Assembly (NCBI RefSeq): GCF_003846445.2
Contig: NZ_CP030139.2
Location: forward strand, 558,001 to 622,000
Direction: 5' to 3'
Source of the DNA: Synechococcus elongatus PCC 11801
Lineage (GTDB): Bacteria; Cyanobacteriota; Cyanobacteriia; Synechococcales; Synechococcaceae
Length of the DNA stretch: 64,000 nt
The position numbers and the translations under genes were made by a program. Positions 18,133 through 41,031 of this stretch are shown piece by piece. The stretch's first letter is position 1, and the number at the start of each line of letters is the position of its first letter. The notes beneath the pieces were generated by a model. It searched no databases. It worked only from the letters and a program-made list of their open reading frames with translations, and was not told where the DNA came from.

Positions 18133-18134
18133 AC

Positions 18135-26355: not shown

Positions 26356-26904
26356 ATGAATGTGATCTTTCTTCCTCAAGGCGACTGGCTCGGTCTCTCC
26401 TATCGGCTGCTGTTAGCGATGTTGGTAGGTGCCGTGATTGGGCTCAATCGTCAGAGAGGAGGACGACCGGCGGGAATGCGAACCTTCACTCTTGTGGCGA
26501 TGGGGTCTGCACTGTTTGTGATGGTGCCATTGCAAGCAGAAGGTGACAGCAGCTTTGCTGCGATCAATGCCCTTAGCCGAACCGTGCAGGGGGTTGCTGC
26601 AGGCGTGGGCTTTCTTGGAGCTGGACTAATTCTGCAACGCGCTCCCAAAACCAAGCGATCGGGTCGGCCTCGCGTTAGTGGCCTAACCACCGCCGCCACC
26701 ATTTGGATTACAGCTGCTTTGGGTGCTGTGATTGGCTGTGGCCTTTGGCAACTTGGCCTGATCGGAGCCTTTTTTACCTTGCTGACCCTGAGTGGCTTCA
26801 AGCGCTTACAACGAATCGCGTGGCTACGACAAAGCTGGGAACGATTGATCGCTTGGGACGCAAAGACTTTACCCGCCGATACAGAAGAAGAGGACGATGA
26901 TTAA
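26356..26904 (+). CDS. MgtC/SapB family membrane protein
   Basis: The 182-residue protein has four or five hydrophobic helices and the family signature GLNRQRGGRPAGMRTFTLVAMGSALF near residues 29-54, plus GVAAGVGFLGAGLIL. MgtC-like proteins influence magnesium limitation responses, membrane potential and ATP synthase in other bacteria; direct transport is doubtful. The acidic C-terminal tail (TEEEDDD) is polar and cytoplasmic. The ACT-like C-terminal domain of long MgtC is missing, as in the short SapB form. It follows the catalase-like gene after about 100 bases and may be co-transcribed. Confidence 0.85.
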   Translation: MNVIFLPQGDWLGLSYRLLLAMLVGAVIGLNRQRGGRPAGMRTFTLVAMGSALFVMVPLQAEGDSSFAAINALSRTVQGVAAGVGFLGAGLILQRAPKTKRSGRPRVSGLTTAATIWITAALGAVIGCGLWQLGLIGAFFTLLTLSGFKRLQRIAWLRQSWERLIAWDAKTLPADTEEEDDD

Positions 26905-27056
26905 GGTGCTCAACGATCACATTAATTAAGGTCTGTTGATTTCAAGCATGATTGCATCAAGAAATGATTGTTGCGGTTTCCTTGGAATCAATGAAATAAC
27001 CAAAAATCATCATTTAATTAGTTCTCTGACCTAGTCTTCATTCTCTTGTTCTATAA

Positions 27057-28241
27057 ATGACAGATTCTGAATCTTTCACTCATGTCCAGCCAGTATATTC
27101 GCTCAAGCAGCTGACCCAGTATTTTCTGAAGCTGGGAACACTTGGCTTTGGCGGCCCGATCGCCTTAGTTGGCTATATGCATCGGGATCTCGTGGAAGAA
27201 CGCCAATGGGTCTCTGATGCAGAGTATCAAGAAGGACTGACCCTGGCTCAAGTCGCCCCTGGTCCACTAGCAGCGCAACTATCGTTTTATTTGGGTTATG
27301 TCCACTATGGATTTCTAGGGTCAGCATTAGTTGGATTTGCCTTTGTCCTGCCTTCTTTCCTAATCGTTGTTGCACTGGGATGGGCTTACACCCTTTATGG
27401 TGGCTTAAATTGGATGCAGGCAGTGTTTTATGGCGTCGGAGCTGCTGTCATTGGCATCATTGCTATCAGTGCATATAAATTAACGCGAAAAACAGTTGGA
27501 ACAAGCTGGTTATTGTGGAGCATTTATTTGGTTAATGCTGTTACGACAATTGTGACAGAATCAGAACGAGTTGAGCTGATCTTGGGTTCTGGGGCTCTTG
27601 TTTTACTCATCAAGTTCCCACCTAAGCACTGGATTAAGCAGAACCGCTTGAATAGTTTCATCGGGTTGCCTCTGATTCCTCTCTTGGCAGCAGTACCCAC
27701 TGCGACTACAAGTTTGCTCGGTCAGATTGCACTCTTTTTTACCCAAGCAGGTGCATTTGTATTTGGCAGTGGACTCGCGATTGTTCCCTTCTTGTATGGC
27801 GGTGTAGTTAAAGACTTTGGTTGGCTCAACTCCCAGCAATTTTTAGATGCTGTTGCTGTTGCAATGATTACACCAGGACCGGTTGTCATTACAACGGGCT
27901 TTATTGGCTTTCTAGTGGCTGGATTTCCGGGGGCTTGCGTTGCAGCGATCGCAATGTTTATTCCTTGTTATCTTCTGACAGTAATTCCCGCACCCTATTT
28001 TAAAAAGCATGGGAAGAACCCTAAGATTTCTACGTTTGTGAATGGTGTTACTGTCGCAGCTACTGGGGCAATCGCAGGAGCTGTTGTTGTTCTAGGACGA
28101 CAATCTCTTCACGATCTCCCTACATTTTTGATTGGGCTCATTGCTTTAATTAGCTCATGGAAACTGGGTAAAAAGTTGCCAGAGCCTTTAATCATCGTGA
28201 TTGCAGCGATCGCAGGAGTCATTTTCTGGCCCAAGCAGTAG
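27057..28241 (+). CDS. chrA: Chromate/anion transporter ChrA (SrpC-like)
   Basis: The 394-residue polytopic protein is made of two homologous CHR domains: the first opens FLKLGTLGFGGPIALVGYMHRDLVEE with LTLAQVAPGPLAAQLSFYLGY, the second has FTQAGAFVFGSGLAIVPFLYGGVV with AVAMITPGPVVITTGFIGFLV. This is the bidomain form that effluxes chromate. In PCC 7942 the homologue SrpC is plasmid-borne and sulfur-regulated, and chromate is a sulfate analogue, so its place in a sulfur gene group makes sense. The start is the ATG at 27057 (MTDSESFTHVQ). The stop is followed by a 7-base hairpin (AGCCAAC/GTTGGCT, 28244-28265) without a T-tract. Confidence 0.9.
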   Translation: MTDSESFTHVQPVYSLKQLTQYFLKLGTLGFGGPIALVGYMHRDLVEERQWVSDAEYQEGLTLAQVAPGPLAAQLSFYLGYVHYGFLGSALVGFAFVLPSFLIVVALGWAYTLYGGLNWMQAVFYGVGAAVIGIIAISAYKLTRKTVGTSWLLWSIYLVNAVTTIVTESERVELILGSGALVLLIKFPPKHWIKQNRLNSFIGLPLIPLLAAVPTATTSLLGQIALFFTQAGAFVFGSGLAIVPFLYGGVVKDFGWLNSQQFLDAVAVAMITPGPVVITTGFIGFLVAGFPGACVAAIAMFIPCYLLTVIPAPYFKKHGKNPKISTFVNGVTVAATGAIAGAVVVLGRQSLHDLPTFLIGLIALISSWKLGKKLPEPLIIVIAAIAGVIFWPKQ

Positions 28242-28327
28242 TCAGCCAACTAACTTCGGTTGGCTACCCTATATGAATCATCCCAAATGCACCGTTTTGT
28301 AACCCAGAGGGCAGGCTAATCCAAGCC

Positions 28328-28352
28328 AAAACCATTACTGTCAGTAGGTTTT
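28328..28352. promoter_or_regulatory. Hairpin just upstream of the cysteine synthase gene
   Basis: AAAACC and GGTTTT arms plus an inner TACT/AGTA pairing around a GTC loop form an almost continuous hairpin 13 bases before the ATG. It could be an operator or an RNA element affecting translation. Confidence 0.4.
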
Positions 28353-28364
28353 AAGCCAAGAGTA

Positions 28365-29354
28365 ATGCCGCAAATTCTCAATCGACTAACGGAATGGATC
28401 GGCAATACCCCGCTGGTACGCCTCCAAGAGACAGCTCAGCAATATGGGGCGATCGCGGAAGTGCTGCTCAAGTTGGAATATTTGAATCCGCTGGGAAGTG
28501 TCAAAGATCGCACAGCTTTTAACTTGATCCAGTCGGCGCGATCGCAGGGACTGATTACCGCTGGAACTACCCTGATCGAACCCACCACCGGCAACACCGG
28601 AATTGGTTTGGCTTTTGCAGCGGCGGCTGAACAGTTGCGGCTGATTCTCGTCATGCCCGATCGCGTCAGTGCTGAGCGGATCCGCTTGGCCAAACTGCTT
28701 GGGGCAAAAGTCGTTCTCACCCCTGCGGCGGAAGCGATGCTCGGCTGTATTGCCAAAGCGCAAGCCTTGCAACAGGAAATTCCAGACAGTGTGATTCTGC
28801 AACAGTTTCAAAATCCGGCGAATCCCAGCATTCATCAAGCAACCACAGGGCCAGAAATTTGGCGCGATACCGAAGGTGAGGTCGATATTGTCGTGGCAGG
28901 TGTCGGGACGGGTGGAACCCTAATGGGCATTTCCCGCTACCTCAAGCCCTTGAGACCCAGCTTGCAAAGCATTGCCGTTCAACCGGCGCGATCGCCCGTT
29001 CTCTCTGGTGGGGTGGCCGGATCGCATCAGCTGACTGGAATGGGCCCTAATTTTGTTTCCCCCTTAGTCGACCACAGTCTCATTGATGAAGTCCTCTCGG
29101 CCTACGAAGAGGATGCGATCGCAGTGATTCGCACCTGTGCTGCCCGCGAAGGCATTCCCCTCGGCATCTCCAGTGGAGCCATTGTTTGGGCTGCATTACA
29201 GGTTGCCAAACGCCCAGAAAATGCGGGGAAGCGCATCGTAGCGGTCTGTCCTTCCGGCAGTGAACGCTATCTCTCCAGCACATTGCTTGCCGACATCAAC
29301 CTTGAGAGCGATGACATTTCTGATTGGGTCGCGATCGCCCAAAGTCAGGCATGA
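28365..29354 (+). CDS. Cysteine synthase (O-acetylserine sulfhydrylase), SrpG-like
   Basis: This 329-residue PLP enzyme makes cysteine from O-acetylserine and sulfide. The Schiff-base lysine is K47 in LGSVKDRTAF; the substrate loop TTGNTGIGLAFAAAAE and the phosphate-binding GVGTGGTLMG are intact. The N-terminal IGNTPLVRL motif is standard. It belongs to the CysK/CysM family; the plasmid-encoded, sulfur-regulated SrpG of PCC 7942 is the same kind of enzyme and of similar length. Its stop overlaps the ATG of the gamma-glutamyltransferase gene (ATGA), implying translational coupling of cysteine synthesis and glutathione breakdown. No partner serine acetyltransferase is visible here. Confidence 0.92.
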   Translation: MPQILNRLTEWIGNTPLVRLQETAQQYGAIAEVLLKLEYLNPLGSVKDRTAFNLIQSARSQGLITAGTTLIEPTTGNTGIGLAFAAAAEQLRLILVMPDRVSAERIRLAKLLGAKVVLTPAAEAMLGCIAKAQALQQEIPDSVILQQFQNPANPSIHQATTGPEIWRDTEGEVDIVVAGVGTGGTLMGISRYLKPLRPSLQSIAVQPARSPVLSGGVAGSHQLTGMGPNFVSPLVDHSLIDEVLSAYEEDAIAVIRTCAAREGIPLGISSGAIVWAALQVAKRPENAGKRIVAVCPSGSERYLSSTLLADINLESDDISDWVAIAQSQA

Positions 29355-30877
29355 CTTCTGTTGCGAGGCGGCTGGGGCGCAGCCCTATCTATGCCCAGAA
29401 TGTGGTTGCCACCTCGCATCCACTCGCGACTGCTGCAGGCATTGAAGCGCTGCGTGCTGGTGGTAATGCCATTGATGCCGCGATCGCAGCGGCCATTACC
29501 CTCACGGTTGTCGAACCGACAGGAAACGGTGTTGGTGGCGACACCTTTGCCCAAATCTGGACGGGCGATCGCCTCTATGGCTTGAATGCGTCCGGGCGAT
29601 CGCCCAAGGCTTGGACCCCGGAACGGTTTGCACACTTACCGCAGATGCCCCAGCAGGGATGGGAGAGCGTCACGGTGCCCGGAGCCGTTTCTGCGTGGGT
29701 CGCACTCTCCGATCGCTGGGGACAGCTCCCGTTCGCCCAACTGTTCCAAGAAGCCATTCGCCACGCAGAAGAAGGGTTTGCGATCGCCCCTCAAGTGGCC
29801 TACTGGTGGCGTTTCTATGCCCCAGAGACCGCCCCAACCGTCGGAGAATGGCAGCGCAATCCAGAACTTGCCCAGAGTCTCCGCCAAATTGCTGAGAGTC
29901 ATGGCGAGGCGTTTTATCGCGGGGATCTGGCTCGGAAAATAATCGCAGCGGCTCAGGCAGCCGGTGGCGGACAAACCCTCGCAGATTGGGCCGAGCATCA
30001 AGTGGAATGGGTGGAACCTCTTTCGGTCAGCTACAGCGGGGCAGAGGTCTGGGCCTTGCCACCCAACAGCCAAGGCATAATTACGCCGATTGCCTTGGAA
30101 CTGCTCAAGCGTTGGCGCGGACCAGAAGCCGCGAGTGAAAGCGGCACGAATCAACATCGGCTGCTGGAAGTGGTGCGAGCTGCCCTCGATCTGGGCTATC
30201 GCGAACTCGGGGATCTAGATTGGATGCCTCTGACGCCAGCTGAACTGCTCCATCCCCGACGACTCGATCGCCTCGCCGCCACCCTCAGTCCCAAAGTGGC
30301 AGCAACCTATGCGACTCAAAGCACTCCGACGGGCGGCACTGTCTACCTCTGCACTGCCGATGCTCAGGGGCGAATGGTGTCCTTGATTCAGTCCAACTAT
30401 CAGGGATTTGGGGCGCGGGTCGAGGTCCCGGGCACAGGGCTGACTTTCAATAATCGTGGGGCTTGCTTTGTTCTCACCCCCGGACATCCCAATCAGGTGG
30501 GGCCCCAGAAACGACCCTTTCATACCTTGACGCCGGGTTTTTTGACGCGGAATGGTCAAGCCCTCGCCGCCTTTGGCGTTATGGGCGGGCCGCTCCAAGC
30601 TCAGGCACAGGTGCAGCTCCTGCATCGCCTTTTAGATCGCGGCGAGAATGTCCAAGCGGCGATCGAAGCCCCTCGCTGGGAAGCCCAAACCAACGGCACC
30701 GTGCGGATTGAACCCGGGTTCCCGTCAGCAACCTATGCCAGCTTGACTCGTCGCGGTCATCGCCTAGAGCGGCAGCCAGAACCCAGACTGGGTGGTGGAC
30801 AAATCATTTGGCGACAGCCCCGAGGCTATGTCGCCGCTTCCGATCCGCGTAAGGATGGCCAGGCCTCAGGCTTCTAG
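29351..30877 (+). CDS. Gamma-glutamyltransferase family protein (Ntn hydrolase)
   Basis: This 508-residue protein is related to gamma-glutamyltranspeptidases, which cleave the gamma-glutamyl bond of glutathione and similar compounds after self-processing at an internal threonine. The N-terminal part has VVATSHPLATAAGIEALRAGGNAIDAA and PTGNGVGGDTFA; the expected processing site is the Thr in TGGTVYLCTADAQGRM (around 328), followed by SNYQGFGARVEVPGTG. The THxS form of classical Ggt is absent, as in the YwrD-like subgroup. No signal peptide is visible, so a cytoplasmic role is likelier than the periplasmic one of E. coli Ggt. The ATG overlaps the cysteine synthase stop; a TTG at 29324 is rejected. 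Confidence 0.87.
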   Translation: MTSVARRLGRSPIYAQNVVATSHPLATAAGIEALRAGGNAIDAAIAAAITLTVVEPTGNGVGGDTFAQIWTGDRLYGLNASGRSPKAWTPERFAHLPQMPQQGWESVTVPGAVSAWVALSDRWGQLPFAQLFQEAIRHAEEGFAIAPQVAYWWRFYAPETAPTVGEWQRNPELAQSLRQIAESHGEAFYRGDLARKIIAAAQAAGGGQTLADWAEHQVEWVEPLSVSYSGAEVWALPPNSQGIITPIALELLKRWRGPEAASESGTNQHRLLEVVRAALDLGYRELGDLDWMPLTPAELLHPRRLDRLAATLSPKVAATYATQSTPTGGTVYLCTADAQGRMVSLIQSNYQGFGARVEVPGTGLTFNNRGACFVLTPGHPNQVGPQKRPFHTLTPGFLTRNGQALAAFGVMGGPLQAQAQVQLLHRLLDRGENVQAAIEAPRWEAQTNGTVRIEPGFPSATYASLTRRGHRLERQPEPRLGGGQIIWRQPRGYVAASDPRKDGQASGF

Positions 30878-31005
30878 AACAGGGACTTGTATGGCGAGAT
30901 AGAAGTTGCGATCGCCTGCAGGTCTTTGTGCACACCCAAGGACGCACAGTGATTCCAAGATTTGCGCGATCGCAGAGGAGCGAAATGTGACCAAGGCACA
31001 GCATA

Positions 31006-31044
31006 ATACTACTGCTTGACGGTAGTAACGTAGCGCAGTAGTAT
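31006..31044 (+). promoter_or_regulatory. Promoter and operator candidate of the higBA pair
   Basis: TTGACG (31016-31021) and TAGTAT (31039-31044) are spaced by 17 bases, a good sigma-70 match. A perfect 9-base inverted repeat (ATACTACTG 31006-31014, CAGTAGTAT 31036-31044) brackets the promoter and covers the -10 box, as expected for autorepression by the antitoxin. The toxin GTG starts only two bases after the -10 box, so transcription from here would begin inside the coding frame. Confidence 0.55.
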
Positions 31045-31045
31045 C

Positions 31046-31330
31046 GTGATCATCGGCTTCAGCTCCAACGAAACTAAGCTCATCTTTGAGGGTTTTAAGT
31101 CTCGCGATTACCCGCCAGATATTCAAAGAGCTGCCTTGCGTAAGCTGCTACTGATCGACGCAGCAACATCCGTCAATGATTTACGGGTCCCCCCTGGCCA
31201 CCGGCTAGAAAAACTCGCAGGCGATCGCAAGGGGCAATACAGCATTCGGATCAACGATCAATGGCGAATCTGCTTTGTTTGGACCGCTGAGAATAATGCC
31301 GACCAAGTTGAAATCGTAGACTACCACTGA
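31046..31330 (+). CDS. higB: HigB-type toxin (RelE superfamily mRNA interferase)
   Basis: The 94-residue protein is a HigB toxin of the plasmid-maintenance killer family, which cleaves translated mRNA at the ribosome. It shows the family's RLEKLAGDRKGQYSIRINDQWRICFVW core and ends in EIVDYH. The start is GTG 31046; no later Met gives a full fold. It is complete and precedes the antitoxin by 11 bases, the reversed toxin-first order typical of higBA. It stands at the left edge of a patch of damaged and possibly transferred genes. Confidence 0.9.
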   Translation: MIIGFSSNETKLIFEGFKSRDYPPDIQRAALRKLLLIDAATSVNDLRVPPGHRLEKLAGDRKGQYSIRINDQWRICFVWTAENNADQVEIVDYH

Positions 31331-31341
31331 GCTAACTGGTC

Positions 31342-31644
31342 ATGGACGAAAATCGACTGCCTAACATTCATCCCGGAGAAATTCTGAGGCTAGACTTTCT
31401 CGAGCCTTTGGAAATCACGCCCTATCGCCTCAGTAAGGCTATTGGGGTTCCGCAGACCCGCATTAGTGAAATTCTGGCTGAGAAGCGCAGCATCACTGCA
31501 GACACAGCCCTGCGCTTATCCAAGTACTTCGGCAATAGCCCTCAATTTTGGATGAACTTGCAAGCCCAATACGATTTACGTCAGGCTCAAGTAGAGAATC
31601 CAGAAGCTTACGCGCACATTCCCGCCCTTCAACTGACTCATTGA
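31342..31644 (+). CDS. higA: HigA-type antitoxin (XRE family)
   Basis: The 100-residue antitoxin has the HigA opening (LPNIHPGEILRLDFLEPLEITPYRLS), a helix-turn-helix (AIGVPQTRISEILAEKRSITADTALRLSKYFG) and the FWMNLQAQYDLR end. It binds and neutralises HigB and represses the operon promoter. The frame is intact and of normal length. The ATG lies 11 bases after the higB stop. Confidence 0.92.
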   Translation: MDENRLPNIHPGEILRLDFLEPLEITPYRLSKAIGVPQTRISEILAEKRSITADTALRLSKYFGNSPQFWMNLQAQYDLRQAQVENPEAYAHIPALQLTH

Positions 31645-31702
31645 TGCAAGGTTAATTGCAGCCCATCAAGAGTGATGCTGAGGCTTGAGCCTATCTTCTT
31701 GG

Positions 31703-31734
31703 CTCTGCGGTGTTTTTGGGATGGGGCGATCGCC
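31703..31734 (+). repeat. Left copy of a 32-base direct repeat
   Basis: CTCTGCGGTGTTTTTGGGAT followed by GGGGCGATCGCC. A copy with 29 of 32 identical bases lies at 34281-34312 in the same orientation, with a few more matching bases to the left of both. The two flank the accessory patch containing the acetamidase gene. Confidence 0.55.
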
Positions 31735-31952
31735 TTAAGCAACTCATGCCAGTGGGTTCATCGATGAGGTTGAGGACGTTCAACCGCGATCGCTTCGGGC
31801 GGTTGATCGCGGAGGTGTTTTACCAAGGAAAGAATGTGAGCCTTCAGATGGTCAGAGAAGGTCAGGCGGTGGTGTACCGGCAGTATCTAATCGGATGCGA
31901 TCGCAATGCTTATTTGTCTGCGGAGTTAGAAGCAAAGGCGATCGAGTTTTAG
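31710..31952 (+). pseudogene. Thermonuclease (SNase-like) fragment
   Basis: About 70 residues match the middle of cyanobacterial staphylococcal-nuclease-like proteins: DRLKQLMPVGSSMRLRTFNRDRFGRLIAEVFYQGKNVSLQMVREGQAVVYRQYL. The N-terminal third, with the catalytic Asp/Arg/Glu cluster, and the C-terminal tryptophan-rich end are missing, so it should be inactive. The frame begins without a ribosome binding site, immediately at the direct repeat at 31703. It is a remnant of a secreted nuclease gene. Confidence 0.75.
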
Positions 31953-32104
31953 GGGTGCGATCGGCCGCATGAGGCAACCTAGGCGGACAGCCAACAGGCT
32001 CTGATTGTCAGAACCAAAACGCGAACGTAATAAAGGCTACACATTCGCAAGAACCCTTAACAAATAATTCCCCATGTTTTCGGTTTGTTTATTGGTTTTC
32101 ATCT
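31953..32104. other. Intergenic, left boundary of HIP1-free segment
   Basis: No gene is seen. The last GCGATCGC before the acetamidase segment is at 31897-31904 and the next is at 34074-34081, so base composition changes about here. Confidence 0.35.
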
Positions 32105-33424
32105 GTGGCAAAACGTCGTGATTTTTTGTTGGGTGCTGCTGCGACGGCGGCTGCCGCGGCTGTGCTGCGTCCCTCTAAGGGCAAGGCCCAGACGAAGCGT
32201 GAGGAAATGATCGCGCTGAAGGAGGGCTTTGTGGGCCAGTATCAGGGGGGCGTCTATCTCCTGCCTGCTACGGATGAAACTGTGCAGTGGGGCTGGTTCA
32301 ACAATGCCGAAACGCCCCGCGCCCGTATTAAGTCGGGGGATACCATCATCCTCGAAACGATGATGGCCTCCCAAAACCAAGTGCTTCCTGGCGTTTCCAT
32401 TGAGGAAATCACTCGCCTGCGGGTCGATAATCCTGGCCGTGGCCCTCACACCATTACTGGGCCTGTATTTATTGAAGGGGCCGAGCCGGGCGACGTTCTA
32501 AAGGTAAAAATTAACCGGATTGTTCCCCGCACCTACGGCTGCAACTGGAACCTGCCGGGTGAGTTGGGTTTGGGTCAATTTCCCAAGCTTTTCCCCGAAC
32601 CTCAGGCCAAGTATTTTTACTTGGATATGGCTCGCGGCAAGACCGAATTCCTACCCGGTATCGAGCTACCGGTGCGGCCCTTCCCCGGCATTTTGGGCGT
32701 AGCCCGCGCCGAGAGCGGCCAGTACAGCACCGTTCCTCCTGGCCCCTTTGGCGGCAACATGGACTGCCGGGAAATGGTAGAAGGCACAACGGTTTATCTG
32801 CCTGTATTTGTGGAAGGGGCACTGCTATGGTCGGGTGACTCCCACGCGGTGCAGGGCAACGGCGAAATCAACCTGACGGCGGTAGAGTCGGCCTTCAACG
32901 AACTCAACCTCACGGTAGAGGTCATCAAGAAGAAGCCCCTGTCTTGGCCCCGAATTGAATCCGACACCCACTGGATGACTGTGGGCTACGACCGCGACAT
33001 GAACAAGGCCATCCGCATTATGGAAGAGGAAACGATCAAGTTTCTGGCGGAATGGAAGGGCCTGAACAGCAGCGATGCCCGCCGCTACATGGCCACCTAT
33101 GGCGATATTCGGGTAGCCGAAGTCGTTAATCAGCTCAAGGGTGTGTATTGCATGCTGTCTAAAACCGACGGTCCCGCCATGGCTGCGCTGCCGATGAAGG
33201 ATACCCGCACGGATTTCGTTACCCATGCGGTCAACGCCGACGCTATGGAAGCCATGAACCAGGCGGCGCTAACGCTCGTTAATCGCATCAAAGATGAAAA
33301 GAGGCTAACGGCGCTGGACGCCTACTCCCTAGCGAGCTTGGCGCTGGATGCCCGTATTGGCCGTATGGAAGCGGGGGCTTACCATATCCACTGCCTCATG
33401 CCCAAATCTACTTGGGTGTCCTAG
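32105..33424 (+). CDS. Tat-exported acetamidase/formamidase family protein
   Basis: The 439-residue protein has a twin-arginine signal (KRRDFL at residues 3-8, then an alanine-rich helix ending near KAQ, residue 29), followed by an FmdA/AmdA acetamidase-formamidase domain. Family marks are PETVQWGW-like ETVQWGWFNN, GPHTITGPVFIEGAEPGDVLKVKI, FGGNMDCREMVEGTTVYLPVFVEGALLWSGDSHAVQGNGE. These enzymes hydrolyse formamide or short amides to ammonia and acid; export of one to the periplasm is less common. The start is GTG. The gene contains no HIP1 site in a genome rich in it and uses codons such as GGC and GCC differently from its neighbours, which supports horizontal acquisition. It has no operon partner. 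Confidence 0.88.
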   Translation: MAKRRDFLLGAAATAAAAAVLRPSKGKAQTKREEMIALKEGFVGQYQGGVYLLPATDETVQWGWFNNAETPRARIKSGDTIILETMMASQNQVLPGVSIEEITRLRVDNPGRGPHTITGPVFIEGAEPGDVLKVKINRIVPRTYGCNWNLPGELGLGQFPKLFPEPQAKYFYLDMARGKTEFLPGIELPVRPFPGILGVARAESGQYSTVPPGPFGGNMDCREMVEGTTVYLPVFVEGALLWSGDSHAVQGNGEINLTAVESAFNELNLTVEVIKKKPLSWPRIESDTHWMTVGYDRDMNKAIRIMEEETIKFLAEWKGLNSSDARRYMATYGDIRVAEVVNQLKGVYCMLSKTDGPAMAALPMKDTRTDFVTHAVNADAMEAMNQAALTLVNRIKDEKRLTALDAYSLASLALDARIGRMEAGAYHIHCLMPKSTWVS

Positions 33425-33906
33425 AGGCTAGCCGGTGGTCTATCAGCATTGGTTGTATGAGTCCTAATCGGTTGGATGGATACAGCGCTGGCGTGACCCA
33501 AGCTACACCTTTACGTTTGGCAGACTACTAGTAGTCTCAACAAAAATCCCGGTTTCTAAACTCGCTATCCAGTCGTCCTGGGATAGTAGGGGCAAAGAAG
33601 CTGGGATTTTTGTAGGTCTTGGGGAGACCAGAGACAAGGGAAAAATCGTACGCACAGCTGAGATCCAAGCCTGCCTGACTAACCGAGGGAGCATCGGTAA
33701 GACTCGATTTCTCAGAACCCATTCTGGAAATAGTTCTCTCAAGTTCTGCTTGGTACGACGAGTTTCGAAAATGTCTAGTGCTTAATGGTAGGTAGACTGT
33801 TTTAGATTTATTCATACGGAATGAATAGAGCTGCCTCTCTAGGTCAGTTTGGGAGAGGCTTAATGTAGAGCGCTCAGCTTTAATCCAGCTCAAAGGGATT
33901 GATCAG
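33425..33906. other. Non-coding stretch after the acetamidase gene
   Basis: Besides the hairpin element at 33522-33612 I see nothing functional. Minus-strand frames here (up to 118 residues) have no family resemblance, no ribosome binding site and run through the hairpin. HIP1 is absent. Confidence 0.4.
33522..33612. repeat. Palindrome plus hairpin element (MITE-like)
   Basis: A perfect 16-base palindrome (AGACTACTAGTAGTCT, 33522-33537) is followed by an imperfect inverted repeat with 17-base arms (CAAAAATCCCGGTTTCT at 33541-33557; its near complement at 33596-33612, 15 of 17 pairing). I recall AAAAATCCCGG-type elements as frequent in filamentous cyanobacteria, so this may be a small mobile repeat that came in with the acetamidase gene. 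Confidence 0.55.
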
Positions 33907-34012
33907 CTACAGACCTACAATGTTTTGAAAGTCCTTGGCGTTGCGTGTCACCAAAGGCAAGTTTTCTGTGAGAGCAGTGGCGGCAATGATCACATCAGGT
34001 AGCTTGATTCGT
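33907..34012 (-). pseudogene. VapC (PIN-domain toxin) 3' remnant
   Basis: On the minus strand a frame reads RIKLPDVIIAATALTENLPLVTRNAKDFQNIVGL and stops. This is the C-terminal third of a VapC ribonuclease, with the PDxxIAATA and LVTRNxKDF motifs. The first 90 or so residues, including the first catalytic Asp, are gone; the remnant begins inside the 3' end of the antitoxin gene. An internal deletion fused the end of the antitoxin gene to the end of the toxin gene. Confidence 0.8.
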
Positions 34013-34234
34013 TGCTACTGGCGCAGTTGAGTCGGTCTGTCCCCAGGCACCTTGGGTTTCAGCGAAAATACGGGCGATCGCTTGCTCATCAATAACGGAC
34101 TCACCTTCAGCAGATAGTGCGTCATCGGCAGCAGGCAAGACGATCACTTCCAGACGGCGATCGCGCAGGGATGGGGGCAAATCCAAGCTGAGATGGGTGC
34201 CGCTCACTTGCACGATTTGACGATGGGCTTCCAT
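33995..34234 (-). CDS. VapB-like antitoxin, partner truncated
   Basis: This 79-residue protein has a short beta-rich N terminus (QIVQVSGTHLSLDLPPSLRDRRLEVIVLPA), as in AbrB/VapB-type or DUF2281-type antitoxins, and a helical, acidic C-terminal part (IDEQAIARIFAETQGAWG). Its last residues read into the fused VapC remnant frame-shifted, so the natural C terminus may be altered (TDSTAPVATNQAT). With the toxin destroyed it has no obvious job except as leftover or cross-regulator. Function is inferred from position and from the adjacent PIN remnant. Confidence 0.55.
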   Translation of the reverse strand: MEAHRQIVQVSGTHLSLDLPPSLRDRRLEVIVLPAADDALSAEGESVIDEQAIARIFAETQGAWGQTDSTAPVATNQAT

Positions 34235-34280
34235 CTGAGCTTTGACCAGCGGATGGGGCTAGATGTTTTGATCTTCTCTT

Positions 34281-34312
34281 CTCTGCCGTGTTCTAGGGAT
34301 GGGGCGATCGCC
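34281..34312 (+). repeat. Right copy of the 32-base direct repeat
   Basis: CTCTGCCGTGTTCTAGGGAT followed by GGGGCGATCGCC; 29 of 32 bases identical to 31703-31734. The 2.55 kb between the copies includes the HIP1-free acetamidase segment and the VapB/VapC remnant. Confidence 0.55.
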
Positions 34313-34442
34313 AGCAAGCAAGCTGTCGCAAAAAAAACAGCGATCGCTTGTCAATTGTCACCACGGAAACCTTGAAATCATCCGGCTAGCCGAGATGCTA
34401 CCGAACAGACCTCGATCGCCGGTTTAGCGATCGCGAGAAAGG

Positions 34443-34580
34443 TTGCTGATCAATCTGCCGCTGAACTACGACCCCAACAATGACCCCAGCCAACTGCCCC
34501 GCGTCCGCTGGCGAAGTCATGCCCAGCTGCTCTATACCACCTGGCTGAACTACGAGGTCTATCAACCCGCATCGCGATGA
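34443..34580 (+). pseudogene. metA: Homoserine O-acyltransferase (MetA-like) 3' remnant
   Basis: A 45-codon frame ending in TGA reads [20 protein letters not shown], then [17 protein letters not shown]. It matches the C-terminal end of MetA, where E. coli has a comparable PYNYFPHNDPQNTP...WRSHGNLLFTNWLNYYVYQ. The roughly 260 upstream residues, including the catalytic Cys and His, are missing, and there is no start or ribosome binding site. It is the relic of a methionine-biosynthesis gene, acquired or lost at this spot. Confidence 0.72.
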
Positions 34581-34780
34581 CCGATCAGGCGATCGCCCCT
34601 TTAAAACTCCAGTCAGACGCTTGAAAAACTTGTAGCTTGCAGTACTTGTGTTTGGTCTCCTCGCCCAACTAGCGTAAACATCAAAATCTCAATCGATTTA
34701 TCGGTGATTACAGCTGTTCCTCGTTTCAAAGAGAACAGGTCACGACATCGGTAGTGATTGAGCTGACCCTAGGAGTGTTT
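34581..34780. other. Upstream region of the ABC transporter operon
   Basis: About 200 bases with no gene. It should hold the promoter for the five-gene run beginning at 34781; I could not identify a convincing -35/-10 pair. Confidence 0.3.
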
Positions 34781-35308
34781 ATGCCGCTGTATCTCGTTGA
34801 GGCAAGCCTGCCAGAAGTCACTCCCGAGATTGTGCAAACCCAGCTGAGTGAGTTGGCGGCAGCCGCTAGCCAACAGCAAGCCGTTTTGATCGAAGCGCAA
34901 GTTGCCCGCAGCGATCGCAAGATTTTTGTGATTGTTGAAGCGGATTCTGAAACGGTTGCTCAGGCCGCCGTTAAACCGAGTCCTTGGGCGATCGCCGCGA
35001 TTAAGCAAGTTCGATTGATTGGCCAAGACCCGCGCACCAATCCCGATCGCAAAACAGAAGCCAATTACCTCGTGGAGTGGGATTTACCCGCTGGCCTAAC
35101 GATGGAGACCTATCTCCAACGCAAAGCCGAGAAGACCCCGCTCTATGCCCAAGTGCCCGAAGTGCAGTTCGAGCGCACCTACGTCTGCGAAGACCTATCC
35201 AAATGTCTTTGCTTCTACGACGGTCCTGACGAAGCAGCGGTTCGCCGTGCCCGTGAAGTCGTTGGGGCTCCCATCGATCGCCTCGCTGCCATCGAAACCA
35301 TCGGTTGA
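34781..35308 (+). CDS. DUF4242-type small protein, first gene of transporter operon
   Basis: The 175-residue protein begins MPLYLVEASLPEVTPEIVQTQ and seems to contain two tandem ferredoxin-like halves of the DUF4242/SCO4226 type. The second half starts YLVEWDLPAGLTMETYLQRK and includes FERTYVCEDLSKCLCFYDGPDEAAVRRAREVVGAPIDRLAAI. DUF4242 members bind nickel in Streptomyces, but the function here is unknown. The ATG at 34781 was chosen over GTG 34754. It lies 11 bases before the acyl-CoA-dehydrogenase-like gene and clearly belongs to that operon, so a role in handling the imported compound is likely. Confidence 0.72.
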   Translation: MPLYLVEASLPEVTPEIVQTQLSELAAAASQQQAVLIEAQVARSDRKIFVIVEADSETVAQAAVKPSPWAIAAIKQVRLIGQDPRTNPDRKTEANYLVEWDLPAGLTMETYLQRKAEKTPLYAQVPEVQFERTYVCEDLSKCLCFYDGPDEAAVRRAREVVGAPIDRLAAIETIG

Positions 35309-35319
35309 GGGATGCTGGG

Positions 35320-36381
35320 ATGCCAACCACCACTCTGCTAAACGAGATTCAAGCGCTCTCCGCCGCTGATCCTGAGCACCGCTCCCAAAGCCTCGATATT
35401 CTCCAGCTCATTGCCCAAGCCGGTTGGTTAGGGCTCGGGGTCGATCGCCAGCAGGGTGGTAACGGTGGCTCCATTCTGGATGCAGTCGAAGCGATCGCCG
35501 CTGTTTCCGAAGTCTGTTTGACCAGTGGCTTTGCTTTTTGGTGCCAACGGACGTTTATTCAGTACCTTACTGCTAGCGAGAATGACTGGCTGAAATCTGA
35601 GGTTCTGCCCATCGTTCTGCGGGCTGAAAAGGCCGGAGCGACGGGAATGTCCAATGCCATGAAGCATCTCTCGGGCTTGGAACCCTTGCGGCTCAACGCT
35701 GAACGTCAAACTGGCGGAATTCAGTTGCAAGGCTCCCTACCTTGGGCTTCCAATCTGGTCCCTAAGCAATTTTTTGTGGCTGTGGCCACGGAAACTCGCG
35801 ACGGAGAGGTCTTGATTGTGGCGATTCCCTCCCATGCCTTGGGGGTTGAACGCAGTCCTGACTTTGACTTACTGGGGATGGTTGCCGCCTCGACGGGTGC
35901 CCTCAATTTCGATCAGGTCTGGCTACCCGATCGCTGGATCATCGCTGAGGCAGGACGGGCCTTCTTGCCCAAAGTGCGCCCGAGTTTTCTGCTCTTTCAG
36001 TGCGGATTACCTCTCGGAACCATTCGAGCGGCACTCAAAGCGATCGCCCCAACCCTGAGTGGGCCCAGTGCAGTTCTCAAGAGCCGTTACTCTCAAGTTC
36101 AAATTCAACTTGAGGGGCTGACCGCCGATCTGCATGCCTTGGCGCAGCTCAGCGAGTTCTCGTTGCCACAACTCCGTCAGTTGTTTGAATTGCGGATTGC
36201 CCTCACCCGCTTGGCGACCGAGGTGACTTGGCTAGAGCTAGAAGCTCGTGGGGGCAAGGGCTACCACGCTGGCAGCACCGCGAAACGGCTGCGAGAAGTT
36301 GCCTTTTTACCCGTGCTGACGCCGAGCTTGGTGCAACTGGAGCGCGAACTGCAGCGCACCGCTGCTGAGGCAGTGGCATGA
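35320..36381 (+). CDS. Acyl-CoA dehydrogenase-fold flavoprotein (SfnB/DszC-like)
   Basis: This 353-residue protein has the acyl-CoA dehydrogenase fold: helical N-terminal domain (LIAQAGWLGLGVDRQQGGNGGSILDAVEAI), a beta-domain middle (GATGMSNAMKHLSG, GIQLQGSLPWASN) and a helical C-terminal domain (LTRLATEVTWLELEARGGKGY). Members next to sulfonate-type ABC transporters, such as SfnB and related FMN-dependent monooxygenases, act on organosulfur compounds rather than acyl-CoA, and I infer something similar here. The catalytic glutamate of true dehydrogenases is not obvious. ATG 35320 is preferred over TTG 35305. Its end overlaps the next gene by four bases (ATGA). Confidence 0.75.
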   Translation: MPTTTLLNEIQALSAADPEHRSQSLDILQLIAQAGWLGLGVDRQQGGNGGSILDAVEAIAAVSEVCLTSGFAFWCQRTFIQYLTASENDWLKSEVLPIVLRAEKAGATGMSNAMKHLSGLEPLRLNAERQTGGIQLQGSLPWASNLVPKQFFVAVATETRDGEVLIVAIPSHALGVERSPDFDLLGMVAASTGALNFDQVWLPDRWIIAEAGRAFLPKVRPSFLLFQCGLPLGTIRAALKAIAPTLSGPSAVLKSRYSQVQIQLEGLTADLHALAQLSEFSLPQLRQLFELRIALTRLATEVTWLELEARGGKGYHAGSTAKRLREVAFLPVLTPSLVQLERELQRTAAEAVA

Positions 36382-37190
36382 CCACCACAATCGCCGATCC
36401 GGTTGTCAACCCGCGATCGCCCACTGACATCATCCTGCAGGCGCGATCGCTGACCAAGCACTATCGCAGCGGCAACCACAACGTCACCGCCTTTCAAGAT
36501 CTCACCCTCAGCTTGCACCCGGGCGAGATCGTCTGTCTGTTAGGGCCCAGTGGCTGTGGCAAATCCTCCTTGCTGCAAGCGATCGCCTGCCTCCAAAGCA
36601 TTGATGCCGGCGAAATTCAGTTTCTGGGTCAGCCGCTGCGTCAGCCACATCCGCGCATTGGCTTTGTCTTCCAAGAACCGGCGCTGCTGCCTTGGCAGAC
36701 CGTCTGGCAAAACGTCTCCTTTGGCTTGGAACTGAAACAGGGGCCACAGCTAAGTGACAGTCAGCGGCGATCGCGAATTAGTGAAGCCCTAGAACGAGTT
36801 GGGCTAGCTGGCTCTGAACGCGCCTATCCTCGGCAGCTCTCAGGCGGCATGGCCCAGCGGGTGGCTCTTGCCCGTGCTTTGGCTCGCCATCCCCATCTGC
36901 TGTTGCTAGATGAGCCCTTCGCGGCTCTGGATGCGATCCATCGCTTGGAAATGCAGAAGCTGCTGCTGGAGGCGATCGCAGGACAAACCGAAGCCGTGTT
37001 GATGGTCACCCACGACCTCGATGAAGCCTTGCTACTGGGCGATCGCGTCATCCTGATGCATCGCAACCCCGGTCGCTTCGGTCAGCAGTGGATCATTCCC
37101 CAGCCGCGTCCGCGGTTTCATTGCCTGACTGACCTCAGTGGCTTGCGTGCCGAAATCCTGCAAGCCCTCTCCGATTCCCTGACTCCGTAA
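36378..37190 (+). CDS. ABC transporter ATP-binding protein (SsuB/TauB/NrtD-like)
   Basis: The 270-residue ATPase of the nitrate/sulfonate/taurine importer family has Walker A GPSGCGKSS (about 56-63), the signature LSGGMAQRVALARAL, Walker B LLLLDEPFAALD and the H-loop VTHDLDEA. It powers the permease encoded by the fifth gene of this run. The ATG overlaps the stop of the acyl-CoA-dehydrogenase-like gene, indicating translational coupling. It lacks the regulatory C-terminal domain of cyanobacterial NrtC/CmpC. Confidence 0.92.
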   Translation: MTTTIADPVVNPRSPTDIILQARSLTKHYRSGNHNVTAFQDLTLSLHPGEIVCLLGPSGCGKSSLLQAIACLQSIDAGEIQFLGQPLRQPHPRIGFVFQEPALLPWQTVWQNVSFGLELKQGPQLSDSQRRSRISEALERVGLAGSERAYPRQLSGGMAQRVALARALARHPHLLLLDEPFAALDAIHRLEMQKLLLEAIAGQTEAVLMVTHDLDEALLLGDRVILMHRNPGRFGQQWIIPQPRPRFHCLTDLSGLRAEILQALSDSLTP

Positions 37191-37214
37191 TTCTTACTCG
37201 CTGAGTTAACGACC

Positions 37215-38438
37215 ATGATTCATCCGCCGTTCTGCCAATGCTGCGGCCTGTCCCGCCGCCAATTCCTCAAGCTTTCAGGCTTGTTTACAGGGTCTCTCGC
37301 TCTTGCTGCAGGCTGCCGTCCGGGCAATGAAACCTCAACCGCACCCAGTAGCCCTGCCAATGACCAGCCCCTCAAAATTGGCTATCTGCCGATTACCGAT
37401 GCGGCACCCCTCCTGATCGGTCATTCTCAAAAGTTCTTTGAACAGGAAGGGTTACAGGTTGAAGCCCCAACCCTGTTCCGCTCTTGGCCCCAGATTATCG
37501 AGGCATTTATCGCCCGGAAGGTGAACGCCATTCACATCCTGATGCCCGCCACTATTTCGCTGCGCTATGGCCGGAACTTCCCTGCCAAGGTGGTTGCTTG
37601 GAACCACACCAATGGCTCAGCCCTAACGGTGGGGCCGAGTGTCAACAAGGTTGAAGACTTAGCCGGTCGCACGATCGCAGTGCCCTTTTGGTACTCCGTC
37701 CATAACGTTGTGCTGCAACAAGTGCTGCAAGACACAGGGCTAAAAGTAGTGCGTCGTCCTCGGGAAGCAGCGATCGCAGACGATGAAGTCAACTTGGTGG
37801 TGCTACCCCCGCCAGACATGATTTCAGCCTTAGCCAACGACAGCATTGGCGGCTACATCGTGGCCGATCCATTTAATGCCGCCGCTGAAAAACGCAAGGT
37901 TGGCAAGATTCTCCGCTTCACCGGTGATGTCTGGAAAGATCACGCCTGCTGTGTGATTTTCATGCACGAAGACGACCTTAAAGAACGGCCAGAATGGGCG
38001 CAGCGAGTCGTCAATGGCTTGGTGGCTTCCCAAGCGTGGATGCGCGATCGCCGCCAAGAAGTTGCCGAAATTCTTTCCAAGGATGGAGTCGGCAAGTATA
38101 CGCCCCACCCACTACCCATCCTGCAGCAGGCGCTGACTGCCTACAGCCCCGAAGTCTATGGCCCCATCGGAGCTATTCGCCATGCCGATTGGGGCAGCGA
38201 TCGCATTGACTTCCAGCCCTATCCCTTCCCGTCCTACACCGAGAAGTTAGTCACGCTGCTGCAACAAACTCAAGTTGAAGGCGAGCGAACCTTCCTCGAT
38301 CAACTCTCGCCCCAGCAGGTCGCCACCGATTTAGTGGATGACTCTTTTGTCCGAAAAGCGATCGCGGCAAAGGGTGGCCCCGCTCAATTTGGCTTGACTC
38401 CCGACTTCCGTCGTCAAGAAGTCTTCCAGGTCAGTTGA
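37215..38438 (+). CDS. ABC transporter substrate-binding lipoprotein (SsuA/NrtA-like)
   Basis: The 407-residue binding protein has a combined export signal: a twin-arginine motif SRRQFLK (residues 13-19) and a lipobox LAAGC with Cys34 as lipid attachment site. The mature part is a NMT1-type fold (PLKIGYLPITDAAPLLIGHSQ, ALTVGPSVNKVEDLAGRTIAVPFWYSVHN) related to nitrate, bicarbonate, sulfonate and taurine binding proteins. It would catch an anionic or small organic substrate outside the plasma membrane. An odd cysteine cluster (CQCCG, residues 7-11) precedes the twin arginines. The substrate cannot be read from sequence. Confidence 0.88.
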   Translation: MIHPPFCQCCGLSRRQFLKLSGLFTGSLALAAGCRPGNETSTAPSSPANDQPLKIGYLPITDAAPLLIGHSQKFFEQEGLQVEAPTLFRSWPQIIEAFIARKVNAIHILMPATISLRYGRNFPAKVVAWNHTNGSALTVGPSVNKVEDLAGRTIAVPFWYSVHNVVLQQVLQDTGLKVVRRPREAAIADDEVNLVVLPPPDMISALANDSIGGYIVADPFNAAAEKRKVGKILRFTGDVWKDHACCVIFMHEDDLKERPEWAQRVVNGLVASQAWMRDRRQEVAEILSKDGVGKYTPHPLPILQQALTAYSPEVYGPIGAIRHADWGSDRIDFQPYPFPSYTEKLVTLLQQTQVEGERTFLDQLSPQQVATDLVDDSFVRKAIAAKGGPAQFGLTPDFRRQEVFQVS

Positions 38439-38439
38439 G

Positions 38440-39237
38440 ATGACGATTAGCCTGCGATCGCGCCGCCCCTGGTTCTCTGGTTGGCAGCGAATTATCCAGT
38501 GGATTCCTTATCCCTTGCGAGGGCTGCTGTTAGGACTGTTGATCTGGAGTGCTTTGACCTCCGCTTGGATCAACCCTGATCCGGTGTGGCAGGCCTTTGC
38601 CCCTGAATCAGCGATCGCGGCTTTAGGGAAATTGCTGTTCAACGGCACGCTCTGGCCACACATCGGTGCAAGCCTGCAACGAGTGGCCGTGGGCTTATTG
38701 GCAGCGATCACGGTTGGGGTTCCGATTGGTTTGCTGTTTGGGCTGGTGCCAACAATCGAGCGATCGGCAACCGGAGCATTGCAGTTCATCCGCATGATCT
38801 CGCCCCTGTCCTGGATGCCGATTGCCGTCATGGCCTTTGGTATTGGTGATCTACCGGTCTATTTCTTGCTAGCGATCGCTGCCGTCTGGCCAATTCTGCT
38901 CAGTACCAGCAGCGGTACTGCCGCCGTCAACCAGAAACTCTTGCTTCTAGCTCGTAGCCTCTGTGCGACTCGCAGTGAGACGATTCGGCGTGTGGTGATT
39001 CCTGCGATCGTGCCGCAAATTCTCGTGGGTCTTCGGCTGGCGATCGGCACGATTTGGATTGTCCTGGTTCCTGCTGAAATGCTAGGGGTTAGCTCGGGAC
39101 TGGGCTACTTCATCCTCGATACCCGCGATCGCATTGCCTACAACGAACTCACCGCCGTTCTATTGGCGATCGGCCTGATTGGCTGTGCTTTGGATTGGAG
39201 CCTGCAATCCCTGCAGAAACACTGGCAGCTCAATTAA
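38440..39237 (+). CDS. ABC transporter permease (SsuC/TauC-like)
   Basis: The 265-residue permease has about six membrane helices and the cytoplasmic coupling loop (LARSLCATRSETIRRVVIPAIVPQIL), a version of the EAA motif. It pairs with the ATPase and the lipoprotein just upstream. The start ATG is one base after the lipoprotein stop. It is the last gene of the run; the next gene lies about 240 bases on. Confidence 0.9.
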   Translation: MTISLRSRRPWFSGWQRIIQWIPYPLRGLLLGLLIWSALTSAWINPDPVWQAFAPESAIAALGKLLFNGTLWPHIGASLQRVAVGLLAAITVGVPIGLLFGLVPTIERSATGALQFIRMISPLSWMPIAVMAFGIGDLPVYFLLAIAAVWPILLSTSSGTAAVNQKLLLLARSLCATRSETIRRVVIPAIVPQILVGLRLAIGTIWIVLVPAEMLGVSSGLGYFILDTRDRIAYNELTAVLLAIGLIGCALDWSLQSLQKHWQLN

Positions 39238-39480
39238 GAGCACCTCATCCAATCATTAGCCAGAGTCTCAATTCTTTTGCTCAGTATTTTGACCGTGCAA
39301 ACGGATTCGAATGATTGACGATTTCATCTGAGACTTCGCTGGGGGATTCAGACTGTCCTAATTCTGCGGCGATCGCAAGGGATGGCCTAGATTAAGCAGT
39401 GGTCAACAGGAGAGCCGCGATCGCTTGGATCTGGATCGGGGTTCTTCCGGCGATCGCTCCGCTTGTGTCGAGACGCCACT

Positions 39481-41031
39481 ATGCCGCAGTCCCATGAATC
39501 CGTTGACCTGATTGTCATTGGCAGTGGCTTGGGCGGGCTGTGCTGTGGTGCTTTAGCCGCTCGCTATGGCCTCGACGTGCTGGTTTTGGAAGCTCACGAT
39601 CGCCCCGGAGGTGCTGCTCATGGCTTTGAGCGGCGTGGTTTTCACTTTGAATCTGGCCCGTCGCTCTGGTCAGGCTTAGGGCGCTGGCCGAGTACCAATC
39701 CGCTGGCTCAAGTCTTACGAGCGATCGGAGAAGAAGTGCCGGTCCTGACCTATCGCGAATGGGGCGTGTTGCTGCCCGAAGGCCAGTTACAGATTGGGGT
39801 GGGCAACACCGACTTTCTCAAAACAGTCACCGCCCTGCGTGGACCAGCTGCTGCTCAAGAGTGGCAAGACTTCATGACTTGGCTGGCTCCCTATAGTGCT
39901 GCTGCTAATGCGCTGCCCTTGTTGGCGTTACGGCCTGGGCTCAGTCTGTTCAACACCTTGGCGGGAAGTGCTGGCAAACTGCTACCGCATCTGGGGCGGA
40001 TGGCTGCTTTGGGTGGCGCATTTGGCCCGATCGCTCGACGTCATCTCAGCGATCCGTTTCTGCTCAACTGGGTGGAACTGCTCTGCTTTTTGATCAGTGG
40101 ATTGCCTGCGGATCAAACCAGTGCAGCAGCAATGGCGACCTTGTTTGGAGAATGGTTTGAGCCGGACGCCTGTTTGGAATATCCGGTTGGCGGTAGTGCT
40201 GCGATCGCAGAGGCACTGGTTCGAGGACTCCAAAAACAGGGTGGCACCTTGCAAGTCCGCAGCCGAGTCACCGAAATTCTGGTGGAAGGCGATCGCGCCT
40301 GTGGCGTTCGCTGTGCCGATGGTCAGATAATTCACGCCCGTCGCGCCGTGGTCAGCAACGCCAGCATTTGGGACACATTGAACCTGCTGCCTAGCGATAG
40401 CCTGCCGACTCGCTGGCGAGAACAGCGGCAGCAAACCCCCGCTTGTCATGGCTTTTTACATCTTCACCTTGGGCTGCGCGGCGATGATTTGCAGCACTTA
40501 CCGCTGCATCACGTTTGGGTGGGTGATTGGCAGCGAGGGATCACTGCAGAACGCAACATGGTGGTGCTCTCAATGCCATCTCTGCTGCAACCTGACCTTG
40601 CACCAGCCGGCCATCAGGTCTTGCACGGTTACACCCCAGCCAATGAACCGTGGGAATTGTGGCGAGATTTAGAGCCAGGCAGTGCGGTCTACGAGGCACA
40701 AAAACGCGATCGCTGTCAAATCTTCTGGGATGTGCTGGAGCAATTGATCCCCGACGTCCGCGATCGCGCTGTGATTTCCTTGGAGGGTACGCCGCGCACC
40801 CAAGCCCACTATCTCAACACCTTTCAGGGCAGCTATGGGCCTGCGATCGGTGCGGATCAGGGACTGTTCCCCGGTTGCCAGACCCCAATTGCCAATCTAT
40901 TGCTCTGTGGAGCCAGCGTTTTCCCGGGCATTGGGGTTCCACCCGTCGCTACCAGTGGAGCGCTGGCAGCCCATGCCCTCGTTCCCGCCAGCCAACAGAA
41001 GAAAATGCTCAAGGAGATCGGCATTCTCTAA
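39481..41031 (+). CDS. CrtISO/phytoene-desaturase-like FAD oxidoreductase
   Basis: The 516-residue protein has an N-terminal Rossmann FAD motif (DLIVIGSGLGGLCCGALAARYGLDVLVLEAHDRPGGAAHGFERRG) and the C-terminal TPIANLLLCGASVFPGIGVPPVATSGALAAHAL block of carotenoid isomerases and desaturases. The nearest named family is prolycopene isomerase CrtISO (CrtH), but cyanobacteria carry several paralogues (CrtO, CruA-like and unknown), so the substrate is open. ATG 39481 is preferred over ATG 39463 because the FAD motif is normally close to the N terminus. It stands alone, with about 240 bases upstream and a hairpin-rich tail region. Confidence 0.82.
   Translation: MPQSHESVDLIVIGSGLGGLCCGALAARYGLDVLVLEAHDRPGGAAHGFERRGFHFESGPSLWSGLGRWPSTNPLAQVLRAIGEEVPVLTYREWGVLLPEGQLQIGVGNTDFLKTVTALRGPAAAQEWQDFMTWLAPYSAAANALPLLALRPGLSLFNTLAGSAGKLLPHLGRMAALGGAFGPIARRHLSDPFLLNWVELLCFLISGLPADQTSAAAMATLFGEWFEPDACLEYPVGGSAAIAEALVRGLQKQGGTLQVRSRVTEILVEGDRACGVRCADGQIIHARRAVVSNASIWDTLNLLPSDSLPTRWREQRQQTPACHGFLHLHLGLRGDDLQHLPLHHVWVGDWQRGITAERNMVVLSMPSLLQPDLAPAGHQVLHGYTPANEPWELWRDLEPGSAVYEAQKRDRCQIFWDVLEQLIPDVRDRAVISLEGTPRTQAHYLNTFQGSYGPAIGADQGLFPGCQTPIANLLLCGASVFPGIGVPPVATSGALAAHALVPASQQKKMLKEIGIL

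Follow-up and report, generated by a model that had tools for sequence, protein, structure and literature searches.

The closest described relatives of the operon reported here lie on plasmid pANL of Synechococcus elongatus PCC 7942 and in Staphylococcus aureus, and sulfur control of both is taken from published accounts. In PMC13125312, a TauA-like and a TauC-like gene of pANL are named srpL and srpM, srp being expanded as sulfur-regulated plasmid gene in the eLife paper on srpI. In S. aureus, SA0165 is given as a DUF4242 protein (PMC8158120, table), and SA0165 to SA0169, including TauB, TauA and TauC, are listed as CymR regulated and repressed 11- to 34-fold by sulfide (PMC5480029, Table 2, where SA0165 is hypothetical); a DUF4242 gene and ssuB, with neighboring locus tags (RS00910/RS00915), fall together in PMC9796851. 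We analyzed a stretch of 64,000 nucleotides from strain PCC 11801 (contig NZ_CP030139.2, positions 558,001 to 622,000), referred to here as the window, in which five genes encode a DUF4242 protein, an acyl-CoA-dehydrogenase-fold flavoprotein, and the ATPase, binding protein and permease of an ATP-binding cassette (ABC) importer. This operon is a real and conserved module, probably with a sulfur-regulated role in uptake and oxidation.

An earlier, sequence-only reading of the window had proposed a closely spaced five-gene run, and the run was confirmed at exactly those coordinates: all five reading frames are open from 34781 to 39237 on the + strand, separated in gene order by an 11-nt gap, a 4-nt ATGA overlap, a 24-nt gap and a 1-nt gap (Table 1). 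Since the order is identical on six S. elongatus plasmid records and recurs in distant phyla, it is not due to chance. In searches of Pfam and NCBIfam, all five proteins stayed below the cut-offs of named equivalogs for sulfur, nitrate or nickel. Taurine and nitrate ATPases were among the best NCBIfam models for the ATPase, every one below its cut-off, and the binding protein scored 19.3 for the TAT domain TIGR01409 (cut-off 16.7) and 89 bits for SsuA (TIGR01728, cut-off 163.5). The importer genes announced as SsuABC-like are thus present, while their likeness to SsuA is loose.

Table 1. Features of the operon and of the conserved sequence preceding it (window coordinates)
Feature	Position	Strand	Evidence
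SCO4226/DUF4242 protein, 175 aa, two repeats	34781-35308	+	PF14026, 83.5 bits (cut-off 28.5)
Acyl-CoA-dehydrogenase-fold flavoprotein, 353 aa	35320-36381	+	PF02771 Acyl-CoA_dh_N, 28.3 bits (cut-off 22.9)
ABC transporter ATPase, nitrate/taurine type	36378-37190	+	PF00005 ABC_tran, 120.7 bits (cut-off 25)
Tat lipoprotein-type binding protein, srpL orthologue	37215-38438	+	PF13379 NMT1_2, 156.8 bits (cut-off 24.7)
Single ABC permease, srpM orthologue	38440-39237	+	PF00528 BPD_transp_1, 76.2 bits (cut-off 26.4)
Remainder of srp sulfur block	24477-30880	+	pANL alignment; Pfam matches in the window for ChrA, CysK and GGT
Sequence ahead of the operon, shared with pANL 16958-17148; a probable promoter region of its own	34590-34780	+	

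Megablast of positions 34700-39300 against the plasmid collection returned six records, all of them S. elongatus plasmids, each matching at 86.6% DNA identity over 97% of the 4601-base query and carrying the five genes in window order; the pMAL record also contains the operon. By blastn, window 34590-39227 aligned with pANL (PCC 7942) 16958-21595 at 85.9%, and window 24477-30880 with pANL 10486-16927 at 86%. The flavoprotein and the DUF4242 protein are 93.8% and 90.3% identical, respectively, to their PCC 7942 counterparts. On pANL the operon is preceded, in order, by genes for a carbonic anhydrase, a catalase, MgtC, a chromate transporter, a cysteine synthase and a gamma-glutamyltransferase (GGT)-like protein. 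The block and the encapsulin gene srpI (at 497650, 99% identical) are both on contig C1 (2.7 Mb); we conclude that the srp block of the window is chromosomal and that its host is closely related to S. elongatus. The window and pANL each contain a single copy of the conserved upstream block TCAATCGnTTTATCGGTnATT, in both cases in the operon's upstream region. The block therefore belongs to this promoter only and was rejected as a regulon-wide DNA motif. No match to the sigma-70 consensus was found in the operon's upstream region.

Relative to pANL, an insert of about 3.7 kb (30881-34589) interrupts the block, falling precisely at the junction of the GGT-like gene and the promoter region. It contains a HigB-like toxin gene with a helix-turn-helix partner (31046-31644), a gene for a formamidase-like Tat protein (32105-33424), a segment at 34026-34312 that is 81% identical to pANL 1985-2271 and, directly upstream of the operon, a gene remnant of 141 bp (34427-34567) that is 80% identical to G000:C1:2314311-2314452 and that we take, by eye, to encode the final part of a MetA-like homoserine acyltransferase. 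Directly downstream of the operon, beyond the end of the pANL match, lies a carotenoid-isomerase-like flavoprotein gene (39463-41031; 279 of 587 bits for CrtISO).

The flavoprotein was present in 17 of 386 cyanobacterial genomes. The DUF4242 profile matched in 11 of these 17 and in none of the other genomes, and the two genes were adjacent in all 11, thus bearing out the pairing whose conservation was to be checked; in the remaining six, an OsmC gene replaces DUF4242. Nine of the 11 DUF4242 modules were whole, one had a broken ATPase (G095) and one had no binding protein (G014), and the binding-protein profile matched 12 of the 386 genomes, namely, 10 of the 11 DUF4242 genomes plus G201 and G133. 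At the G014 locus (L039, 9207-11159) the permease gene directly follows the ATPase gene. In Microcystis aeruginosa LEGE 91341 (loci L035 and L049) the ATPase is split into three frames, reflecting decay or an assembly error.

Beyond the cyanobacteria, GTDB genome contigs were scanned with the flavoprotein alignment, and the best 80 of 86 confirmed loci were kept; an earlier scan of GTDB contigs with a single flavoprotein sequence as the query had returned no loci. By our thresholds, 26 of the 80 carried DUF4242 and the binding protein and 2 carried DUF4242 only, 28 carried a CMD gene and the binding protein and 5 CMD only, 3 had the binding protein with no recognized gene in the first position (slot 1), and 16 had the flavoprotein alone. 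Judged by record titles, the DUF4242 type occurs in Cyanobacteria, Chloroflexota (including Thermomicrobium) and Actinomycetota, and the CMD type mostly in Pseudomonadota. Plasmids carry the module as well, with DUF4242 in Thermomicrobium roseum and Pseudonocardia, with CMD in Deinococcus, Roseomonas, Variovorax, Bartonella and Agrobacterium, and with OsmC in Corynebacterium and Pseudosulfitobacter. Two Neisseria gonorrhoeae records of about 2.17 Mb in the plasmid collection (NZ_CP119140.1 and NZ_CP119142.1), apparently misfiled chromosomes, each gave a 28% flavoprotein match. For the alignments (A3 to A8), rows with stops, rows outside the length limits and near-duplicates were omitted. The DUF4242 and flavoprotein sequences came from 26 loci (plasmid records, cyanobacterial genomes and the window) and the 80 GTDB loci, so that some genomes, such as those of L032 and L047, are counted twice; the 43 DUF4242 proteins were not thinned, and the 85 flavoproteins were thinned from 106.

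Slot 1 is thus filled by three families that are unrelated in Pfam, namely, PF14026 (DUF4242), PF02627 (CMD, AhpD-like) and PF02566 (OsmC). All 43 DUF4242 proteins of the modules share a [KR]CxC motif, which is C142-x-C144 in the window protein. The CxC is absent from the four PF14026 repeats, read from the proteins, of the only other cyanobacterial genomes with the family (G011 and G288), and it looks specific to the DUF4242 of the module. GCxxC..GH was found in 35 of 36 CMD proteins, and at least one cysteine in all eight OsmC proteins; AhpD and OsmC are thiol peroxidase families. From the presence of cysteines in each slot-1 family, we infer that the slot-1 step is thiol redox chemistry. 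The AF2 model of the DUF4242 protein (predicted local distance difference test score [pLDDT], 92.5) consists of two beta-alpha-beta-beta-alpha-beta repeats, and its resemblance to dimeric alpha/beta-barrel proteins such as coproheme decarboxylase and chlorite-dismutase-like proteins (TM score, 0.5 to 0.6) gave no function. The description of this protein as an undescribed component accordingly holds for its function, whereas srp names were already in use for the operon.

The flavoprotein has the acyl-CoA-dehydrogenase fold (AF2 model, pLDDT of 95.3), and its nearest solved fold is isovaleryl-CoA dehydrogenase (IVD) (8sgr; Z, 40.3; root mean square deviation, 2.3 over 347 residues). None of 85 relatives has a glutamate at residue 222 or 334, the latter being T, A or S; position 222 was taken from the alignment, and 334 was reached by extending that alignment by eye without gaps. 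These we take to be the catalytic Glu positions of IVD-type and medium-chain acyl-CoA dehydrogenase-type enzymes. As both positions are lost, a normal acyl-CoA dehydrogenase is unlikely; the alignment argues against acyl-CoA dehydrogenation, without thereby proving a monooxygenase. Residues W142, Q227, E326, F329 and P335 are invariant in 85 of 85 flavoproteins.

The same loss would suit a DszC/MsuC-like two-component monooxygenase that depends on FMNH2 and has a sulfone, sulfinate or sulfonate as its substrate, in which case slot 1 would merely remove H2O2 leaked from reduced flavin, in line with the general association of AhpD-like and OsmC families with peroxide. SfnB (TIGR04022) is the best NCBIfam match and DszC (NF043015) is listed as well, the dibenzothiophene monooxygenase TdsC (5xb8) ranks 16th in Foldseek (TM score, 0.79; 20% identity), and MsuC (6u76) was picked up by the flavoprotein profile. 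However, the scores are 38.4 bits against a cut-off of 430.9 for SfnB and 18.3 against 850 for DszC, the fold is closer to IVD, and the module includes no flavin reductase gene. Membership of the SfnB/DszC family, as previously suggested, was therefore not borne out, and we consider such an enzyme unlikely, though a serious contender. Fold could not arbitrate between monooxygenase and dehydrogenase, the model being nearest to IVD and like enzymes; the 50 fold matches listed include no DszC/MsuC entries, from which no exclusion follows.

Eleven residues of the binding protein (R89, W91, H107, W129, H131, W159, H163, W240, H243, C245 and C246) are invariant in all 45 sequences compared. The nearest solved relative is 3un6 (E, 2e-29), presumably from S. 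aureus, which keeps H131, H163 and the CC pair in the alignment. Across loci, conservation is stronger in the binding protein than in the flavoprotein (median identity to the window of 52% versus 34% in 26 DUF4242-type loci and of 56% versus 41% in 28 CMD-type loci), and, to judge from these identities, one ligand is likely to be shared across phyla, whatever occupies slot 1. The five invariant histidines (H70, H107, H131, H163 and H243), together with the Cys-Cys pair, in 45 of 45 proteins are uncommon for a protein that binds sulfonate or nitrate. For the CC pair, THI5-like chemistry was not retained, since THI13 appeared only at an E value of 0.81; it stands as a lead.

Histidine and cysteine ligands in the binding protein, in part also kept in 3un6, would suit an importer for a metal or a metal-thiol complex, and the DUF4242 family includes SCO4226, which binds nickel according to PMC4186839. 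The sites described there are of low affinity and consist of histidine and oxygen ligands, not CxC; the nickel-binding SCO4226 model (NF033706) gives the window protein 18.5 of 125 bits, it is not obvious what a flavoprotein would contribute to metal uptake, and no recurrent metal-resistance gene appears among the 25 listed neighbor families of either tally (see below). We therefore regard metal uptake as quite improbable.

The possibility that the importer serves nitrogen or carbon supply, carrying a nitrate-, cyanate- or formamide-like compound, with a sulfur context arising by chance, also has to be weighed, since the nearest solved chains include NrtA, NrtC and CmpC and a formamidase-like gene lies upstream. 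That gene, however, is inside the insert absent from pANL, and the residue aligned to the NrtA lysine, which we assume takes part in nitrate binding, is variable (K in 20, R in 13 and others in 12 of 45 proteins; a single contact position was compared). Moreover, a sulfur context is found both on pANL and in S. aureus, and we judge this alternative improbable, even though PMC13125312 places srpL and srpM in its nitrate-uptake category. The formamidase-like gene near the operon and the putative formate dehydrogenase of the S. aureus set may coincide by chance or, possibly, hint at a C1 product.

The sulfur connection, in contrast, is supported by orthology to the pANL sulfur block, by the srp names, and by the DUF4242-TauBAC genes of S. 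aureus in the CymR regulon. The proposal of organic-sulfur scavenging thus stands as to the sulfur link, although not as to the class of substrate, and we regard sulfur scavenging as the likely role of the operon. Several observations weigh against it. In the S. aureus operon as tabulated, no flavoprotein gene separates DUF4242 from the ATPase; sulfur control of srpL and srpM is read from gene names, and in PMC13125312 their decrease accompanies a general decrease of pANL genes and they are classed with nitrate uptake. After 3un6, the next-nearest solved binding proteins are nitrate and bicarbonate binders, true acyl-CoA dehydrogenases are the closest matches to the flavoprotein model, and no flavin reductase gene lies within the operon. 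The neighborhood of DUF4242-type modules is a further point: luciferase-like genes occur near 3 of 21 loci versus 0.94 expected (P, 0.07; weak), and rhodanese in 3 of 96 neighbor open reading frames (ORFs), two of the three in one Limnothrix locus.

The tallies of neighbors covered 96 of 133 chosen ORFs for the DUF4242-type set and 121 of 173 for the other set. Luciferase-like monooxygenases were the commonest nonmodule family, with 4 of 96 and 7 of 121 ORFs, respectively. Near CMD-type modules they were found at 6 of 23 loci versus 0.41 expected from genome-wide density, a clear excess that speaks for the sulfur reading; the comparison used 23 of the 25 named loci, leaving out L073 and L074, and not all events are independent because L077 and L087 are both from Thauera. 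For rhodanese, the genomes concerned hold about 245 domains in 125.7 Mb, as summed by hand. Sulfur neighbors were therefore set aside as proof for DUF4242-type modules, the luciferase-like and rhodanese counts being too weak. At one Pseudomonas locus, genes for TauD and for an NMT1-like binding protein adjoin the module, and on the Pseudonocardia plasmid a luciferase-like oxidoreductase and a rhodanese follow it. The Limnothrix locus (L047) has rhodanese genes on both flanks, at 5980-6972 (Pfam) and 13395-13835 (match position). In a Chloroflexota metagenome-assembled genome, a GGT gene (L120, 5065-6678) lies directly upstream of a DUF4242-type module, as in S. elongatus.

We propose that a Tat-exported SrpL-type lipoprotein would bind a small organosulfur compound outside the membrane and that the ABC importer, with one permease and one ATPase, would carry it inward; as there is a single permease gene, the importer permease would be a homodimer. 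The cytosolic flavoprotein, without the base for acyl-CoA oxidation, may then oxidize the compound at or adjoining the sulfur. The CxC thiols of DUF4242 would accept or reduce an oxidized sulfur intermediate or clear peroxide made by the flavin, a job that AhpD-like and OsmC proteins would perform in other lineages. Released sulfide or sulfite would enter cysteine via the cysteine synthase of the srp block. Taken as a whole, sulfur-scavenging uptake followed by flavin oxidation, with a thiol protein handling oxidized sulfur or peroxide, has in our view an even chance of being right, whereas the chemical steps as written are rather unlikely to hold. A bolder version, in which the module is a cross-phylum organosulfur assimilation system that combines a new class of base-less flavoenzyme with an interchangeable thiol partner (a CxC DUF4242, a CxxC AhpD-like or an OsmC protein at the same step), which might, for example, take over the substrate's sulfenyl or persulfide group, is conceivable, although we lean against it. 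On that version, DUF4242 would acquire its first catalytic role.

The srp genes are known, apparently uncharacterized; what is new is that the module spans several phyla, that its thiol slot is swapped and that its flavoprotein lacks the base. In the full-text literature searched, mostly without subscription journals, no description of the module as such was found in the portions available, which does not show its absence from print. If sulfur scavenging is correct, a sulfur-source pathway would be common to model cyanobacteria, soil Pseudomonadota, Chloroflexota and perhaps S. aureus, and DUF4242 would gain a testable function. That three unrelated thiol families replace one another in a single slot restricts the chemistry to look for, and the plasmid copy in PCC 7942, a tractable host, makes the question directly answerable.

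Compared with known systems, the operon is closest to the pANL srp operon, with which it shares the five genes and their order, the upstream region and the chrA-cysK-GGT neighbors, while differing in its chromosomal location and in the insert separating GGT from the operon. S. aureus SA0165-SA0169 (NWMN_0115-0119) resembles it, in the published tables by which the two were compared, in having a CymR-regulated, sulfide-repressed DUF4242 gene adjoining TauB/TauA/TauC-like genes, but that set ends with the putative formate dehydrogenase, unlike the window operon. With SsuABC, TauABC and NrtABC it has in common the ABC importer superfamily and adjoining genes for binding protein, permease and ATPase, whereas its binding protein falls below the SsuA, TauA and SaoX cut-offs and bears its own invariant His/Trp/CC signature. 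SCO4226 shares the PF14026 domain and a ferredoxin-like fold with the DUF4242 protein, which differs in its two repeats per chain, its CxC and its score below the NF033706 cut-off. The window flavoprotein, finally, shares with SfnB, DszC and MsuC the fold superfamily and the company of NitT/TauT-type transporters, and its alignment lacks the dehydrogenase base that these sulfur flavoenzymes have presumably lost likewise; it differs from them in scoring far below the curated cut-offs, in being shorter and in having an invariant residue set of its own.

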